Below are positions 31,121 to 55,261 of a DNA stretch of 64,000 nucleotides, piece after piece. Position numbers and translations under genes: made by a program. Positions within the stretch are counted from its first letter, which is position 1. Each line of letters opens with the position of its first letter. Source of the stretch: Fischerella sp. CENA71 (GTDB lineage Bacteria > Cyanobacteriota > Cyanobacteriia > Cyanobacteriales > Nostocaceae); NCBI GenBank assembly GCA_024239075.1, contig JANBVI010000032.1, forward strand, positions 109,891 through 173,890, read 5' to 3'. Under the pieces are notes generated by a model. It had not been told where the DNA came from and ran no database searches. It saw only the letters and a program-made list of their open reading frames with translations.

Positions 31121-32017
31121 CTATGTATACATTCTGAGCTTTTGCAACAATTCTTGGGTTAACTGAGAAAAGGATTTAGAACCTGATGATTGAGGAGCAT
31201 TTAAAATAACAGGCATAAAACTATCAACAGCTTTTGCAACATTTACATCAACTGGAATTTGAGTTTGACATATTTTTTCTGCACCAAAGTCTTGATGAAC
31301 ACGTTGCATCACTTGTTTGTAGTATCTACCAGTTAACAAATTAGCATTCGACATTGTAAAGACAATTCCCAGCATTTGAATATCAATTTTAGCTTCGTGT
31401 TCGTGGCTTTCTTTCAACTGGGCTACACGTCTTTCTAATAACTGAATACCAACTACAGACAAAGGTTCAGGCTTCGCGGGAAGAATATAGAAATTACTAG
31501 TAGCTAAAGCACTACGAGTCAAAAGATTATATCCTGGAGCGCAGTCTAGAATAATAAAATCATATGCTTGACGCACGGGTTCTAAAACTTTACTCAACAA
31601 GACTCTTTCAAAACGATTCCAAATAGTTTCAAAATCTGTCACACCTAAATTAATCGCCTGATAGTGCAGCATTTCCGAAACTACAAATTCATCATACAAA
31701 TCAATATCTCCTGGTAACAAATCTAATCCTGGGAGATTACAAACCTGGGATTGAATGATGTCTTGAATTGTATGTTTTTGTTCTGGCTCTGGATTGATAA
31801 TTTGATCTATCAGATACCTAAATGTCTTTCTATGTTTCCGGCGCTTCGCAAACTCCATCGGCGACATGAGACTCAGTGTTGCACTAATTTGGCTATCTAA
31901 GTCCAGTACAAGTACTCGTTTGCCATGTTCTTTCGCTAAACAAGTTGCGATATTGACGCTGAGAGTTGTTTTACCAACCCCACCTTTCATATTTGCAGTT
32001 GCAATTACATATCCCAT
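31121..32017 (-). CDS. ParA/MinD-type ATPase
   Basis: 298 aa. Deviant Walker A MKGGVGKTT (about 10-18), A' LVLDLDSQISAT and Walker B FIILDCAPGYN are all present, as in ParA/Soj partition ATPases that bind DNA as dimers. No ParB gene or evident parS follows. It is the last gene of a five-frame minus-strand cluster (wHTH-like, AAA+, RNase D/Cas4-like, FtsK, ParA), 151 bp after the FtsK frame. It may position or partition the complex on DNA, or act independently. Confidence 0.85.
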   Translation of the reverse strand: MGYVIATANMKGGVGKTTLSVNIATCLAKEHGKRVLVLDLDSQISATLSLMSPMEFAKRRKHRKTFRYLIDQIINPEPEQKHTIQDIIQSQVCNLPGLDLLPGDIDLYDEFVVSEMLHYQAINLGVTDFETIWNRFERVLLSKVLEPVRQAYDFIILDCAPGYNLLTRSALATSNFYILPAKPEPLSVVGIQLLERRVAQLKESHEHEAKIDIQMLGIVFTMSNANLLTGRYYKQVMQRVHQDFGAEKICQTQIPVDVNVAKAVDSFMPVILNAPQSSGSKSFSQLTQELLQKLRMYT

Positions 32018-32168: not shown

Positions 32169-33872
32169 TTATATAGAAGGAATTTGAATATTACTAGCAA
32201 ACAGACTTTGTAACCTCTGTAGTTTAGAACCAATCTGGTAAAGTAAATCACCTTTACCTAATAAATATGCAGCTGCTGTTTCTGTACCTCCCAGAATAAT
32301 TTTTGAATCTGCTTCACTCGCAGTACGTAAAGCGACTCGCCCTGGTAAATTTGAGCGAATAATCGGAGTTACTATTTTAGCTTCAGGGCGTTGAGTGGCA
32401 ATAATCAGATGAATTCCAGCTGCTCTAGCCATTGCACCCAATCGTTTAATATTTTGTTCTAATGCTGTGCGAATTTCTTTTTCTGCCATAAAATCGGCGT
32501 ATTCATCAAAAATACAGACAATCCGAGGTAAAGGTTGGCGAGAAATTTGGTTATATGTATTTAGATCAGCATATCCGGCTTTTTCAAACTGCTGGTAGCG
32601 AGTTTCCATTTCTGTTACCAGTTCATCCATTAATTCAATCGCGCGATCGCCATCTTTGACAATAGGCGCATACAACCATGACATCTGCTCAAACTCTGGA
32701 AATGTCACTCGTTTAGGATCGACAAGAGCGATTTTAAGGTGTTGTGTAGAATAACGATAGATCAGACTGAGAAGGAGCGATCGCAAAAATTCACTTTTAC
32801 CACTTCCTGTCGTACCCCCAACCAAAAAGTGACAAGTATTCGGGTCAGATAAATCAGCTTCTACTAACTCTCCATCTAAATTTATCCCGATGGCAATTTT
32901 CACTGGTGCTGTGGCAGCAAAAACCTGTGAGTTGATATAATCTGCAAACTTGGCAACTTGTCTATCTGAACGAGGTAAATCTATACTGACATAGCCAGCT
33001 TGAGGTGCAATGAAGGGAGGATTTGTCAATCCCAACTGCACTTGCAAATCTTTAGATAAGCGCAAAATTGAGTTAACACTCACACCTAAATGAGGTTTCA
33101 GTTTCACCCGGATAAAAGCTGAACCAACAGCACATCCCTGGTAGTCAACCATAATTTTAAAAGATTGCAGAGTTGCAACCAATTCTTCACCAATAGCATC
33201 AGCATTGAAAGATTTCTGACTCTCATTTTTAGAAGAAATATCTGGTGAGACAAAATAAGTTTGACACTTTTGTTTTTGTGGACAAATTTCACACAAATGA
33301 GGCTGAGTTGTCGGTGGTGGTGGATTTGGATGAGGTGGTTCCCATGTCAGCCATTGCTGCATTTGTTGTAGCTTATAAGGAATCAGCTGATGCACAGTAT
33401 TTTCTAATTCTTCCCAAGAATATTGATACTCTTTAAACTCTGGCAAAACACAATATACCGCTGAGTCAACAGGTACTTTCTTCTTTTGCCACAGCATATA
33501 ACTATAGAGTGCTACTTGGGCTAATTGTGCGGACGGATCTACAGGTTGATAGGTTTTAAATTCAACTACACAAAGGCGCTTGAGTTCAAAGTTGAATACT
33601 AAGCAATCAAATTCTCCGACTACTTTTTGTTTGGTTCCATTCGGTAAATCAAAATGATGCTCAAGTTTACGTTCTTCTGAGATAAAAGTGTTACTAATCA
33701 GCTTTTCTGCACTACAATAGCGGCGATTGCTCACCAGCAATTCTGCAAATTTGCGAATTAGTCCTTGTAATCCTTGCCAAACATTTAATAATGGTTGTGC
33801 TTGGTTAATATCTTTAGTGACAGCTTTTTCTAAATAATCAGAAAATTTAATTTGATAAAAAAGCTGCTGCAT
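32169..33872 (-). CDS. Cas4-like nuclease C-terminal half fused to FtsK/SpoIIIE motor
   Basis: 567 aa. The first 205 residues carry the second half of a PD-(D/E)XK/Cas4-type nuclease: D89 in GEFD, E104-x-K106 in VVEFKT, Q116...Y123, and a cysteine group C194-x2-C197-x5-C203. An FtsK-type DNA translocase domain follows, with Walker A VGGTTGSGKS (351-360) and Walker B IVCIFDEYADFM. The first Cas4 cysteine and the catalytic His are in the preceding frame (33924-34718). The two frames are in the same phase, with one TAA and 17 sense codons between that TAA and this ATG. It may be expressed as a separate chain or be the rear part of a disrupted 849-codon gene. Confidence 0.85.
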   Translation of the reverse strand: MQQLFYQIKFSDYLEKAVTKDINQAQPLLNVWQGLQGLIRKFAELLVSNRRYCSAEKLISNTFISEERKLEHHFDLPNGTKQKVVGEFDCLVFNFELKRLCVVEFKTYQPVDPSAQLAQVALYSYMLWQKKKVPVDSAVYCVLPEFKEYQYSWEELENTVHQLIPYKLQQMQQWLTWEPPHPNPPPPTTQPHLCEICPQKQKCQTYFVSPDISSKNESQKSFNADAIGEELVATLQSFKIMVDYQGCAVGSAFIRVKLKPHLGVSVNSILRLSKDLQVQLGLTNPPFIAPQAGYVSIDLPRSDRQVAKFADYINSQVFAATAPVKIAIGINLDGELVEADLSDPNTCHFLVGGTTGSGKSEFLRSLLLSLIYRYSTQHLKIALVDPKRVTFPEFEQMSWLYAPIVKDGDRAIELMDELVTEMETRYQQFEKAGYADLNTYNQISRQPLPRIVCIFDEYADFMAEKEIRTALEQNIKRLGAMARAAGIHLIIATQRPEAKIVTPIIRSNLPGRVALRTASEADSKIILGGTETAAAYLLGKGDLLYQIGSKLQRLQSLFASNIQIPSI

Positions 33873-33923
33873 AGTAGAGGCTATTTCTTCTATTTTTAAT
33901 TGAGATGCGCCAATTTTAAATAA

Positions 33924-34718
33924 TTATTTAAACTTTGCTTCATCAGCAGCTAATTTTATAAATTCATCTGCTAAATAATGAAATACATTACCAATACCAA
34001 GTTTATTATTTGATGGCATAAATAAACTATTGCCACCAAAATGCTGATGTAAATAAAATAGGCGAGGACACTCAAAAGCAACTCTGGCTTTAGTAGCAGA
34101 TAAAGATAAGTTTCTAGATAAATCTTTTGAGTCCTTTGAGGAATTAGACATATGCTCAAAAATATTACTGACAGTATTCGGATTACAAAATTCTAATAAG
34201 TGTCTATGTACAGCAGCTAAATATACTGTATCCATAGCTGCATAGTGTAGCTGCTTTTCTGTTAAAGGACGCTTTTTCCAATCACTTCCCTGTTCTTCCT
34301 TATTTACATCAGAAAAGTGACATAATTCAGTAGCTAATGTCTTGAGTTGCAAGTTAGATACTTCTAAAATACCTTTACCAATCTTTCTGGCTATTTTGAG
34401 AGTGCAAGTAACATTTTGTGCAGAATTACCGCCTAAATACTTTAAATCAAAACTAGCATTATGAAATACCTTTTCAATTTTAGGATTGATCATGATTTGG
34501 TTAATAAAGTGTAAAACCAAATTAGGCTTTCCTAATACATCAAGAATATAAGCAGATTTCCCTGAATAATCGTTAGGCTCTGTCAGTACCTGAATTAATG
34601 ACAATTTTGGATAATAAGTATGCCAATCTGCAATTTCTGTATCTAACCATAGAGTTGTATACAGTGCAAATTTTTCTATCTGCGTCCTAATTGCATGAGA
34701 TTCTTTCAGGTATTGCAT
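33924..34718 (-). CDS. RNase D-like DEDDy exonuclease plus Cas4-like N-terminal half
   Basis: 264 aa. The exonuclease domain (about 1-180) has the full DEDDy set: D26 and E28 in LDTE, D91 in NASFD, and Y159 and D163 in YAAMD. The C-terminal part, FECPRLFYL (C217) to GIGNVFHYLADEF (H247), matches the opening of Cas4/RecB-type nucleases: first Fe-S cysteine and motif I His. The remaining nuclease motifs are in the next frame after a single in-frame TAA at 33924-33926. It starts 10 bp after the AAA+ gene. It is either a natural split protein or the front half of an interrupted gene. Confidence 0.85.
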   Translation of the reverse strand: MQYLKESHAIRTQIEKFALYTTLWLDTEIADWHTYYPKLSLIQVLTEPNDYSGKSAYILDVLGKPNLVLHFINQIMINPKIEKVFHNASFDLKYLGGNSAQNVTCTLKIARKIGKGILEVSNLQLKTLATELCHFSDVNKEEQGSDWKKRPLTEKQLHYAAMDTVYLAAVHRHLLEFCNPNTVSNIFEHMSNSSKDSKDLSRNLSLSATKARVAFECPRLFYLHQHFGGNSLFMPSNNKLGIGNVFHYLADEFIKLAADEAKFK

Positions 34719-36847: not shown

Positions 36848-37693
36848 TCAATTCACGATAATAAAGAATAGTGGTCCACAAATGTTTTGAGGAATTCCGG
36901 CTTCTATCTGTTCTGTGGTGTAGGCGTTAGCTTCTTGCAAGGTACTTAAATCTATTAGGTCTTTTGCTTGCAAACGATACAGCGCCTTATCCAAATCATC
37001 CCGTGATAATGGGGGTTGCAATTTTTGCCGCAAATGAAATATCGGCAAATAATTATCAGTTCCAAGCTCTTTATCTAATTTCTGGATGATTTCTAAAATT
37101 TCTTTATCACTGATATTGATAATCGTCTCAACACCTGACTCTGAACTCTCAGGTGCTGAAACAGATACTTGCTCTGGTATAACTTTCAGAGTTTTCCGCA
37201 AAAAGCGCAGGTAATTATTCAGTAGATCCAAGCTGATGTTTGCGGCTCCCTTGGGACTATAATCATCCCGCAAATACTCAATTCCGCGTTCAGTCAACCA
37301 AACCTCAGCTTTCGTCCTCTTAATTTTAAGTTCGACTTCAATCAATCCGCGATCGCTCAAATTTTTTAATATTGCGTCTCGTTCTACGGCTTTTGGTGAG
37401 GTAATCTTACTAGGATTGATTTTGCCTGAAGTTTGACTTAGCTTTTCTAAAACTTTACGTTCTTTATCTGTAATCGGTAATTCTGCTGAGTCAAGTTTCA
37501 GCAGTGCTTGACCAGGTGATAAAATCTTGACTGTTGCAATCTCACGCGAAAAATCTACTAGTTCGCGAGCGCCTAAATTTTGACATATCTTGTCTTTACC
37601 TTTGAAGCTTTGGAAAATGCTAGCACTAAGGCTTGACCGATAGTTAGAACATCCTAACAGCTTCAGTAAAAACTTTAATTCATTAGTATCCAT
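36848..37693 (-). CDS. winged-helix-like protein, first gene of the cluster
   Basis: 281 aa. Two segments have helix-turn-helix/winged-helix periodicity: about 75-140 (ITDKERKVLEKLSQ ... ILKNLSDRGLIEVELKI ... WLTERGIEYL) and about 200-265 (EILEIIQKLDKELG ... DLDKALYRLQAKDLIDL). It therefore probably binds DNA or serves as an adaptor. It has no enzyme motif or membrane segment. As the first gene of the cluster it may regulate it or load the ATPase. I know of no named family that matches. Confidence 0.75.
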   Translation of the reverse strand: MDTNELKFLLKLLGCSNYRSSLSASIFQSFKGKDKICQNLGARELVDFSREIATVKILSPGQALLKLDSAELPITDKERKVLEKLSQTSGKINPSKITSPKAVERDAILKNLSDRGLIEVELKIKRTKAEVWLTERGIEYLRDDYSPKGAANISLDLLNNYLRFLRKTLKVIPEQVSVSAPESSESGVETIINISDKEILEIIQKLDKELGTDNYLPIFHLRQKLQPPLSRDDLDKALYRLQAKDLIDLSTLQEANAYTTEQIEAGIPQNICGPLFFIIVN

Positions 37694-37889: not shown

Positions 37890-38837
37890 CTACCCCTGCA
37901 CCTGTCGCAATACCTCAAACCCCTTTCCTCTCAAACCCTTAGGTAACAAAGATAACCCTAACCCAGTCCACGCTTTTGCGTGAGAAAAAGACTTACCCGC
38001 GACAACTAATTCTCTACCTTTTTGAATTTCTCCTTTCTCAATCAGGCGCAAACCTAATAATAACTGTGTTTCTGCAAGACGCTGTAGCCTAACTTTCTCT
38101 AACTTCTGTGACTCAAATTTATAACTGCTTAAATATCGCAATTTATCCTGCAAATAAGGAATAGCGCGATTTATTCCTTGCTGTTCTGCATGTACTCGAT
38201 ATTCCATCAATAACTCTGGTAAATAATAACCCTTCTTATCTGCCAAAGCGAGGCGCACAAATAAATCATTGTCTTCGCAATTTTGCCAATTAGGCTGCAT
38301 AAACCCTAAATCTAACAAAGTTTGACGGCGAAATAAAGTTGCACCAATTTGGAAGCTTTGTTGAATAAAGACTATTTCTAATAAATTATCTACAATACCT
38401 GCTGCTAAATTTGCTCTACCCCAGCGACGAGAATTTTCTTGAGTTTTTACCTCATCTCTAATATTGTTAATATCAATAATCCAGTGATCAGTACCGACAA
38501 AATCAATACTATGATCTTGAGCTAAAATCTTAGCAGTATGTTCTAAAAAATCTGGTGTTAATCTATCATCATCATCAAACTTGATAAAATATTCACCTGT
38601 AGCAGCCTCAAAACCAGATCGCATGTTATTACTTTTACCGATATTTTGTGAATGTCGAATATATTTAATTCGTCTATCTGTGTATTGTGAAATTAATTTT
38701 GGTGTACCATCACAAGAACCATCATCACAGATGATTAATTCAAAATCTTGATAAGTCTGCTGTAGTACGCTGTCAATAGCAAAAGGTAAAAGTTTAACTC
38801 TGTTAAAAGTTGGAATACAAATACTAATTTTGGGCAT
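37890..38837 (-). CDS. family 2 glycosyltransferase
   Basis: 315 aa. The GT-A fold starts at once: ISICIPTFNRVKLLPFAIDSVL, then LIICDDGSCDGTP with the nucleotide-binding Asp pair, and FIKFDDDDRLTPDF with the DxD-type metal site. The C-terminal 100 residues are helical. It probably transfers a sugar to a polysaccharide or lipid carrier on the cytoplasmic face of the membrane. It is followed on the same strand by another GT-A-like gene, suggesting a small surface-glycan locus. Confidence 0.88.
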   Translation of the reverse strand: MPKISICIPTFNRVKLLPFAIDSVLQQTYQDFELIICDDGSCDGTPKLISQYTDRRIKYIRHSQNIGKSNNMRSGFEAATGEYFIKFDDDDRLTPDFLEHTAKILAQDHSIDFVGTDHWIIDINNIRDEVKTQENSRRWGRANLAAGIVDNLLEIVFIQQSFQIGATLFRRQTLLDLGFMQPNWQNCEDNDLFVRLALADKKGYYLPELLMEYRVHAEQQGINRAIPYLQDKLRYLSSYKFESQKLEKVRLQRLAETQLLLGLRLIEKGEIQKGRELVVAGKSFSHAKAWTGLGLSLLPKGLRGKGFEVLRQVQG

Positions 38838-52480: not shown

Positions 52481-55261
52481 ATGACTAGTTTTGGGAGTAG
52501 TCGTTTGACTCAGTTTTTGGGTGTGGCGATCGCAATCACACATATTTTCTCTGCAAATTATGCAGTTGCCCAAATTACTGGCGATCGTACTTTACCGAAT
52601 AACTCCAATGTCACCAAAGAAGATAATACCTTCAACATCACAGGTGGAACCCAAGCGGGTAGCAACTTATTCCATAGCTTTCAAGAATTTTCTCTGCCCA
52701 CTGGTAACACGGCTTTTTTCAACAATGCAACAAATATTCAAAATATCCTGACAAGAGTCACAGGTAGTTCAATTTCTAATATTGATGGTTTAATCAGAGC
52801 TAACGGTACAGCAAACCTGTTTTTGATTAATCCCAATGGCATTATTTTTGGTCAAAATGCACGTTTAAATATCGGTGGCTCGTTTTTAGCAACTACAGCC
52901 AGTAGCTTTAAATTTGCTGATGGTAAAGAATTTAGTGCTGTACCAAATAACACAGCTACAACTTTACTAACCGTCAGTGTACCGATTGGTTTGCAATACG
53001 GCAGCAATACCGGAAATATTCAAGTACAGGGTTCTAATTTACAGGTATCTCCTGGCAAAACTCTAGCACTTATAGGTGGCAATTTACAGGTTAATGGAGG
53101 ACAAATATTAGCCCCTGGTGGTCGAGTTGAATTAGCAGGAATTGCAGAAAATAATCATATTGGACTCAATCCGAATGATTCATTTCTGAGTTTGAGGTTT
53201 CCTAATGACGGGCAAAGAAAAGATGTATATTTAAACAACGCTGCCCAAGTTAGTGTTCTTGCTGGTGGTGGTGGTAGCATTGCTATCAATGCCCGGAATT
53301 TGAATCTGTCGGGTGCAAGTACGGTACAAGCAGGGATAGCATCAGGAAAAGGTTCTGTTGATGCAAAGGCGCTGGATATTGATATTAATGCCACAGAGGC
53401 AATTAATGTTGATGCCAGTATTATTTCTAATACAGTGCAGACAAAAGCTGTAGGCGATAGTGGCAATATTAATATCACTACTGGGTCGCTGGCTTTGACA
53501 AGTAACGGTCAACTGAGAACCACAACTTCTGGACAGGGAAATGCTGGCGACATTAATATATTTGCCCGTGATACGCTTCTTTTTGACCGAATGCGTAGTG
53601 ATTCCTCTACTGGCACATACACCACAGTCGATTCACAAGCCGTGGGTAATGGTGGTGACATAAATATCACAACCGGATCACTCTTTGTCAAGAATGCTGC
53701 TGCAATTCTGGCTAGAACAGAGGGACAAGGAAATGCAGGCAATATCAATATAGCTGCTCGTGATACAGTTTCCTTTGATGGCGTCAGTTTCAATCTAGCA
53801 AACATTAGCGGCGCTGCTAGTTCTGTTGGCTCAACAAGCGTATCCAATGCTATAGGCAACGGTAGTACTATCACCATCACAACCGGGTCACTTTTTGTGA
53901 CCAATGGCGCTCGATTGATTGCCAATACCTTTGGACGCGGTAACGCAGGTAACATAAACATACAGGCTCGCGATCGCGTTGTCTTTGACGGTTTTGGTCT
54001 GAATGGCTATTCTAGCGGTGCGGTCAGCAGTGTAGAAAATACAGGTATAGGTAAAGGTGGCAATATTAACATCACTACTAAGTCACTGAGTATCAGAAAT
54101 GGTGCTGTTGTGGGTGCGAGGACTCGTGGCAAAGGAGATGGGGGTAATATTATCCTTAATGCTAAAACTTTAGAAGCTACTAACGGTGGACAAGTTTTTA
54201 CTACTAGTTTTAGCAGCGGCAAAGCAGGCAGTATTACTCTCAATATCACCGATAGTGCTACTCTTGCTGGTACAGACCCCACCTATGTGACTCGACTTAG
54301 CCAATACACTCCAGTTATAGTTCCGAATGTCAGCCCTAGTAGTGGACTGTTTGCTAATACTTCTAGTACTTCCACAGGTCAGGGAGGAGAATTAATAATT
54401 AATACTGGCAAGTTAAATATTCGCGATCAGGCGCAGGTAACGGTTAGTAGTGCAGGATCGGGAGTTGCAGGTTCCTTAAAAGTCGATGCTGACTCAATTC
54501 GTCTTTTGAACCAAGGCAAAATTAGTGCAGATACTAGAGGCGGTGCAGGTAATATTAGGCTGCGATCGCACGACCTGATCTTAGGTAAAAATAGCAGCAT
54601 TACTACTAATGCCACAGGTAGCAACACTATCGGTGGCAACATCAATATTGATACTGATGTTCTCGCTGCTTTTGCCAACAGCGATATCAGTGCTAATTCT
54701 GTTAATTTTTTTGGTGGTAAAGTCATAATCAATACTCAAGGTATTTTTGGTATCCAGTTCCGATCCTCACCAACCCCAGACAGCGACATCACCGCCACAG
54801 GTGCTAGTCCAGAGCTAAGTGGTACAGTGCAAATTAATACACCTGATGTTGACCCCAGCCAGGGATTAGAACAGCTGCGCGTCAATCTCATTGATGCTTC
54901 ACAACAAATTGCTACTGGCTGCAAAAGAGATGACAAGCAAATAAGGGGATCATTTATTGTTACAGGACGTGGAGGTCTACCATCTAGTCCCACAGAACCG
55001 TTAATTACTGATCAAGTCCTAAGTGATTGGATATTACTTCCTGAAGCAAATCAAAACCAATCTAGAAGCAGACTTGAGGAACAACAAAGCCAAGAAGACA
55101 ACTCTATAAATCCCCCGACTCAGATTGTGGAAGCTCAAGGCTGGATAATAAATCCCGATGGTGAAGTGGTATTAGTCGCAACTACACCGACTTTGACTCC
55201 TCACAGTTCCTCATTCACTCCTGTATCTTGTACTAACCTGAGTTCGACACCATTTCTTTGA
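52481..55261 (+). CDS. TpsA-type filamentous haemagglutinin / S-layer-like exoprotein
   Basis: 926 aa. A signal peptide (about 1-31) precedes a two-partner-secretion (haemagglutination activity) domain (about 35-160), with conserved NITGGTQAGSNLFHSFQEFS, NILTRVTGSSISNIDG and ANLFLINPNGIIFGQNA. A right-handed beta-helix of repeated GN(A/G)G(N/D)INI units (NAGDINI, NGGDINI, NAGNINI) fills 270-740. The C-terminal region has IATGCKRDD and EAQGWIINPDGEVVLV, typical of cyanobacterial members. It is probably exported through a TpsB porin; none is in the window. Ribosome site GGGAGAG precedes the ATG. Confidence 0.9.
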   Translation: MTSFGSSRLTQFLGVAIAITHIFSANYAVAQITGDRTLPNNSNVTKEDNTFNITGGTQAGSNLFHSFQEFSLPTGNTAFFNNATNIQNILTRVTGSSISNIDGLIRANGTANLFLINPNGIIFGQNARLNIGGSFLATTASSFKFADGKEFSAVPNNTATTLLTVSVPIGLQYGSNTGNIQVQGSNLQVSPGKTLALIGGNLQVNGGQILAPGGRVELAGIAENNHIGLNPNDSFLSLRFPNDGQRKDVYLNNAAQVSVLAGGGGSIAINARNLNLSGASTVQAGIASGKGSVDAKALDIDINATEAINVDASIISNTVQTKAVGDSGNINITTGSLALTSNGQLRTTTSGQGNAGDINIFARDTLLFDRMRSDSSTGTYTTVDSQAVGNGGDINITTGSLFVKNAAAILARTEGQGNAGNINIAARDTVSFDGVSFNLANISGAASSVGSTSVSNAIGNGSTITITTGSLFVTNGARLIANTFGRGNAGNINIQARDRVVFDGFGLNGYSSGAVSSVENTGIGKGGNINITTKSLSIRNGAVVGARTRGKGDGGNIILNAKTLEATNGGQVFTTSFSSGKAGSITLNITDSATLAGTDPTYVTRLSQYTPVIVPNVSPSSGLFANTSSTSTGQGGELIINTGKLNIRDQAQVTVSSAGSGVAGSLKVDADSIRLLNQGKISADTRGGAGNIRLRSHDLILGKNSSITTNATGSNTIGGNINIDTDVLAAFANSDISANSVNFFGGKVIINTQGIFGIQFRSSPTPDSDITATGASPELSGTVQINTPDVDPSQGLEQLRVNLIDASQQIATGCKRDDKQIRGSFIVTGRGGLPSSPTEPLITDQVLSDWILLPEANQNQSRSRLEEQQSQEDNSINPPTQIVEAQGWIINPDGEVVLVATTPTLTPHSSSFTPVSCTNLSSTPFL

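Follow-up and report, generated by a model that had tools for sequence, protein, structure and literature searches.

An in-frame TAA codon in the nuclease-translocase gene of a predicted defense operon in Fischerella sp. CENA71

The third gene of a conserved operon in Fischerella sp. CENA71 is interrupted by an in-frame TAA codon. We consider it likely that this is a recent, lineage-specific nonsense codon, by which the system is probably disarmed or crippled. The gene is located on the minus strand of a 64,000-nucleotide stretch of contig JANBVI010000032.1 (assembly GCA_024239075.1, positions 109,891 to 173,890), hereafter the window. The genome that holds the window is a 7.47 Mb assembly in 95 contigs, with a completeness of 99.91%.

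The intact gene would produce one protein of ~850 residues, combining an RNase D-type 3'-5' exonuclease, a Cas4-like PD-(D/E)XK nuclease, and an FtsK-alpha/FtsK DNA motor. In the proposed mechanism, the HTH protein and the AAA ATPase of the operon, with their variable recognition part, would sit on invading DNA. The FtsK motor would pump this DNA, and the two nuclease domains would cut and trim it. The stop itself is ordinary, a plain example of the breaking of a defense-type gene, and the exchange of a cassette in the two upstream genes (see below) merits more attention than the stop.

The interrupted frame and its domains

The minus-strand frame from 34718 to 32169 has 850 codons and two stops, the TAA at codon 265 and the terminal codon 850. 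The open reading frames on the two sides of the TAA share one phase (Table 1), and the TAA is separated by 17 sense codons, a distance of 51 bases, from the ATG at 33872. Over their full length and free of gaps, both halves align with a single 849-codon gene of Westiellopsis prolifica IICB1, at 96% protein identity, and the join of the two frames is therefore not due to chance. The preliminary description of this DNA had proposed that one TAA splits a single RNase D-Cas4-FtsK frame. This is borne out by the shared phase, the two stops, and the whole sister gene, and the coordinates, the phase and the 17 sense codons given there were all re-derived as correct.

Table 1. Positions of the interrupted gene, its domains, the other operon genes and the flanking genes in the window
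Feature	Position	Strand	Basis
In-frame TAA, codon 265 of the 849-codon frame	33924-33926	-	Reading-frame translation, sister alignment
Upstream ORF, 264 aa: RNase D-type 3'-5' exonuclease domain and first ~60 residues of Cas4-like domain	33924-34718	-	PF01612 1.9e-29
Downstream ORF, 567 aa: rest of Cas4-like domain, FtsK-alpha, FtsK motor	32169-33872	-	PF01580 4e-37, PF17854 1.6e-7, best Cas4 model 1.4e-6
DNA_pol_A_exo1 (RNase D-type) domain	34197-34700	-	Residues 7-174 of intact sister protein, projected onto window
PDDEXK_1 / Cas4-like nuclease domain, TAA inside	33261-34106	-	Residues 205-486 of sister protein (1.7e-11 there), projected
FtsK-alpha domain	32973-33224	-	Residues 499-582 of sister protein, projected
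FtsK/SpoIIIE motor	32385-32915	-	Residues 602-778 of sister protein, projected
Operon gene 2, 685-aa AAA ATPase; close relatives often diverge strongly in first ~420 residues	34729-36786	-	
Operon gene 1, 281-aa probable winged-HTH protein; last ~70 residues vary with gene 2	36848-37693	-	Weak HTH_45
Flanking ParA-like gene, conserved edge of the site, outside the system	31121-32017	-	
Flanking glycosyltransferase-like gene (candidate, from sequence reading), other edge of the site in many relatives	37890-38837	-	

The domains of the gene are well conserved. PF01580 and PF17854 are matched in all 36 aligned relatives, and also in the downstream chain of the window, and PDDEXK_1 is matched in 32 of the 36. 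DNA_pol_A_exo1 is found in 36 of 36 full-length relatives, while some other relatives are without it. In the RNase D part, Asp91, Tyr159 and Asp163 are present in all 76 relatives that match the gene end to end, and Asp26 and Glu28 in 74 of them, with a gap in the other two.

The TAA divides the motifs of the Cas4-like nuclease. Cys217 and His247 are located before it, and Asp371, Glu386, Lys388, Gln398, Cys476, Cys479 and Cys485 after it. The preliminary description had placed the motifs in the same way, its numbering in the downstream frame (D89, E104, K106, Q116, C194, C197 and C203) differing from that of the full frame by 282. Cys217, His247, Asp371, Lys388 and the three late cysteines are found in all 76 end-to-end relatives, Glu386 in 72 (with Asp in the remaining four), and Gln398 in 74. 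The four conserved cysteines of Cas4 enzymes bind an Fe-S cluster. By analogy with these enzymes, Cys217, Cys476, Cys479 and Cys485 are putative Fe-S ligands.

In this strain, translation would end inside the nuclease domain, and the 264-residue upstream product keeps the whole RNase D domain. The second piece, if it is restarted at the ATG at 33872, would contain the motor and most of the nuclease, lacking the first cysteine (Cys217) and the conserved histidine (His247). With the stop inside the nuclease and these two residues cut off, the strain has probably lost the nuclease as well as its coupling to the motor, which would leave the system disarmed or crippled. Relatives that have no RNase D part (G164, G179 and the Pseudanabaena plasmid described below) start at about residues 188-205, before Cys217. 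The working core therefore seems not to begin at residue 283, the possible restart, and these starts argue that the nuclease needs the segment that holds Cys217.

The pairing with the anti-SD sequence before the ATG at 33872 is weak (-1.5 kcal/mol), in agreement with the weak signal in the preliminary description, although it is stronger than that at 7 of the 9 other starts scored. This start context is a point in favor of a functional split, in which both chains are made and associate into a working nuclease-translocase, as is the retention of catalytic residues on both sides of the stop. On the other hand, the break is inside one nuclease domain. Moreover, the stretch from the stop to the ATG has only two bases different from the intact sister gene, so that no start signal has visibly evolved. 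A promoter or terminator was sought at the split, and nothing convincing was found there.

Codon 265 in relatives, selection and assembly quality

The closest gene, that of Westiellopsis prolifica IICB1 (survey label G003), reads through codon 265. The window genome and this genome appear to be sister lineages, as judged from identity and not from a tree. In the first alignment, which had 28 relatives (L008 was left out by a motif filter, and L003 is the window itself), a sense codon was observed at position 265 in all 28, including L014 and L015 with a shortened RNase D part. In all 80 named loci, the best 80 of 165, a choice in which intact copies are over-represented, codon 265 and both its flanks are occupied by residues. 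In 76 of these best 80 there is one open frame that matches the gene end to end. The other four (L125, L135, L143 and L151) match in part, due to a shortened start or a contig end, and their frame still spans codon 265. The type of residue at this position is variable. No conserved stop or two-gene form at codon 265 is present among the best 80 of the 165 loci.

A wider search covered 386 genomes from the phylum and found the Cas4-like domain (E values up to 1e-10) at 41 places in 39 of them. The Cas4-like match contains a stop at three of these places, one being the window and the other two additional, partial copies of G124 and G005.

The preliminary description had offered a nonsense mutation, a natural two-chain protein and stop readthrough as explanations, and had named an alignment of homologues as the means of choosing among them, with a continuous codon at position 265 indicating mutation. 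That alignment has now given a sense codon in 28 of 28 relatives and a frame that runs through in 80 of 80, which supports the nonsense mutation. None of the 80 named loci is split at codon 265, as a natural two-chain protein would be. Position 283, that of the possible restart, is Met in 45 of the 76 end-to-end relatives, Ile in 19, Leu in 11 and Val in one, and by this distribution Met283 is an ordinary residue rather than a kept start.

Programmed readthrough of the TAA would yield the full protein, and the frame is indeed open and constrained on both sides. The stop is absent from the relatives examined, however, and there is thus no conserved recoding site. A TAA followed by T is a tight stop context, and the TAA of the window is followed by T. 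Readthrough is highly improbable in view of these observations.

The codon changes since the split from G003 were polarized with G093 and G062. Downstream of the stop, the window branch has 5 nonsynonymous and 20 synonymous changes and the Westiellopsis branch 5 and 17 (14 unresolved). Upstream of the stop, the numbers are 6 and 5 for the window branch, and 4 and 4 for the Westiellopsis branch (9 unresolved). The downstream changes are far from the 75% nonsynonymous that was assumed for neutrality (p ~1e-8), and with the same assumption, as a rough bound, at most about one third of the window branch can have been relaxed. No relaxed selection is visible downstream of the stop on the window lineage. 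Three readings are compatible with this: a recent mutation, pieces that still function, or a wrong base.

The second of these possibilities speaks against a nonsense loss, as the two pieces, both of which stay constrained, could still work. A functional split is nevertheless quite improbable, given the absence of any split at codon 265 among the best 80 of the 165 loci and the poor conservation of Met283.

The third possibility is a sequencing or assembly error, in which case the TAA would be due to a miscalled base and the strain would have an intact gene. The genome is a draft, and apart from codon 265 the frame is without a lesion, in addition to the lack of relaxation. However, among the 20 Westiellopsis ORFs that are matched in the window at more than 75% identity (a filter that left out the AAA gene, at 71%), 16 are intact and collinear. 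Two of the other four match long proteins in part, and stops are found in the last two, a 136-codon ORF and the nuclease-translocase gene. The assembly as a whole is not rich in errors, and a sequencing error is less likely than a nonsense codon; we regard it as rather unlikely. The 136-codon sister ORF is matched at 54382-54789 with two internal stops, and is another broken gene in the window.

Shortened copies are also found elsewhere. By a hand count, 97 of 199 related genomes have a clear relative, with FtsK paralogues at or below 44% identity and G156 (a match to the FtsK part only) left out. In 79 of these at least 97 genomes, the frame at the match runs for 830 codons or more without a stop, and in 18, one of them that of the window, it is shorter; these are counts among the matches listed, from which weak, low-scoring fragments are missing. 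The RNase D part is truncated or partly deleted in G005, G111 and G157, and is absent in G164 and G179. Seven genomes (G060, G068, G094, G104, G081, G065 and G017) have 3' remnants only; that in G065 is at a contig end, yet it has three stops in the piece. In G161 and G033 the gene is broken in or before the FtsK part, and in G167 it starts at a contig end. In G182, a genome of low quality (71% complete), there are breaks at 179/203 and 267/312, the latter by a frame change and a deletion, near the site in the window but by a different lesion. A stop at codon 265 is found in none of the 17 other short-frame genomes, in the pieces that reach this codon. The gene is often shortened or broken, in many ways, and the lesion in the window is one of them.

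In G048 (L033 4884-12076), the FtsK part carries an insert of about 7 kb, and residues 629-635, which are matched to either side of it, may represent a short target repeat. This insert raised the suspicion of an excision element as the cause of the interruption; the window has no insert. A second intact copy in the window genome was rejected, as the FtsK-bearing gene and the AAA gene were each found once. An extra match to the RNase D part (L002) belongs to a separate 306-codon exonuclease-like ORF.

The operon, its site and an exchanged cassette

The three genes of the operon have the same direction, with the winged-HTH gene first, the AAA ATPase gene second and the nuclease-translocase gene third. 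The ATPase gene is located upstream of the nuclease-translocase gene in 77, and the HTH gene in 71, of the best 80 of the 165 loci, and most of the loci that miss one of them are interrupted by the end of a contig. In L063 and L067, additional HTH and AAA genes precede a single nuclease-translocase gene, as if several recognition modules served one effector.

The flanking ParA gene is present in all five genomes of the genus, and the operon only in the window and Westiellopsis prolifica IICB1. In G004, G001 and G002, the homology to the window begins at 32172, in the final codon of the nuclease-translocase gene. A divergent ParA-like/ParB-like ORF pair (named from sequence) occupies the site in G004 and G002, and G001 has other genes. 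The different genes in these genus-mates show that gene sets are exchanged there. In six other genomes (L034-L038 and L043), a ParA-like gene is located near an FtsK remnant.

A phage origin was considered and rejected: 163 phage records were matched, none of which covers 80% of the query, and the 20 matches listed are confined to residues 475-849. Likewise, none of the 248 plasmid records matched reaches 80% cover, the best being that from Pseudanabaena, at 75%. The conjugative plasmid pPSE7367.01 of Pseudanabaena sp. PCC 7367 carries a like three-gene set (L166 5099-10058), in which the genes of a hypothetical protein and a P-loop NTPase are followed, in the order of the operon, by an FtsK gene that lacks the RNase D part (residues 205-844 matched, 59%). 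The first two genes were placed by annotation and order, not by sequence comparison.

There is a large difference in conservation along the operon. The DNA identity between the window and Westiellopsis is 60-81% from about 36.9 to 35.5 kb, and mostly 94-98% through the first part of the HTH gene and the nuclease gene. A comparison of 67 operons gave 34 pairs with at least 90% identity in the Cas4/FtsK part, one of which (L112-L139) is two identical contigs of one assembly. Residues 1-420 of the ATPase are less than 70% identical in 14 of the 34 pairs, from 7 of 13 clusters. In those 14 pairs, residues 1-200 of the HTH protein are 71-96% identical and the whole nuclease 88-97%. A stricter cut (whole ATPase below 65%) leaves 7 pairs from 3 clusters and removes the window pair.

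The last ~70 residues of the HTH protein track the first 420 of the ATPase in identity (r = 0.95), as compared to r = 0.15 for the first 200 residues of the HTH protein, with pairs that are not independent. The end of the HTH gene and the start of the ATPase gene are adjacent in the DNA, and one recombination tract can thus explain the linkage. An exchangeable recognition module would produce such a pattern, which suggests this function. The ATPase and the HTH C-terminus are thereby indicated as the likely target-recognition part of a predicted anti-invader class, of which no experimental test was found in the literature searched.

A further reading connects the cassette to the stop. In it, the HTH C-terminus would form, together with the N-terminal part of the ATPase, an exchangeable recognition cassette different from that of the sister, and the stop in the nuclease would have been selected because the new specificity hit the strain's own DNA (autoimmunity). 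We consider this unlikely; if true, a defense system has been caught just after its disarming. For the nonsense codon itself, the sister genome keeps a near-identical intact nuclease-translocase gene, and the need for one continuous chain can therefore be tested.

Comparison with known systems

The literature search found no paper that joins RNase D, FtsK, Cas4 and cyanobacteria. The nuclease has a PD-(D/E)XK core and four conserved cysteines in common with Cas4. The cysteines of Cas4 are arranged, as here, with one early and three late in the sequence. The gene differs from Cas4 by its fusion to the RNase D and FtsK parts, and the downstream chain of the window falls short of the curated Cas4 model, with a TIGR00372 score of 26.4 bits against a cut-off of 65.

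FtsK-alpha and the motor are shared with FtsK/SpoIIIE translocases, and solved FtsK chains match the family profile (2e-64). A housekeeping FtsK was rejected, with a PRK10263 score of 150.2 bits against a cut-off of 1566 and with nuclease domains carried by the gene. Among the PADLOC models, the FtsK part of the window scores best with SspH of the DndFGH/SspFGH systems (9.3e-65). In the part of PMC10853773 (Rakesh, Aravind and Krishnan, 2024) drawn on here, DndH has ~1700 residues and eight domains, and its REase is preceded by SWI2/SNF2, TRD and inactive methylase domains. The gene in the window is not DndH, as it has 849 codons, other nuclease partners, and no SWI2/SNF2, TRD or methylase domain in the Pfam scans.

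The same part of PMC10853773 predicts "HerA/FtsK capture" defense systems, with an Orc/CDC6-type AAA+ ATPase and a HerA/FtsK motor. These also combine one inactive and one active REase with wHTH domains, the AAA core being separated from the C-terminal wHTH by the inactive REase as an insert. Some of the systems described there have FtsK-alpha, and some include a DndG-like protein with several wHTH domains that evolves rapidly. In some, the FtsK part is fused with a 3'-5' exonuclease.

The AAA gene of the window matches AAA_16 (4.8e-8, 34.1 bits, cut-off 32.6). Its score with the orc1/cdc6 model is 13.9 bits against a cut-off of 181.3, and the best solved chain has an E value of 0.12. The HTH gene has an HTH_45 match with an E value of 0.011, below the family cut-off. 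Three of the six listed features of HerA/FtsK capture were found in the operon, and none was tested and failed.

The kind of system observed here is already predicted in print (PMC10853773). As far as the class is described in that part of the paper, the operon shares with it the FtsK motor and the FtsK-alpha domain, an AAA+ ATPase gene and a probable HTH gene, and a REase-fold nuclease with its active-site residues kept in the sequence, the copy in the window being cut by the stop. With a subset of the class, it also shares the fusion of a 3'-5' exonuclease to the FtsK part. By these sequence features, the operon is a probable member of the predicted HerA/FtsK capture class, with a predicted role in defense.
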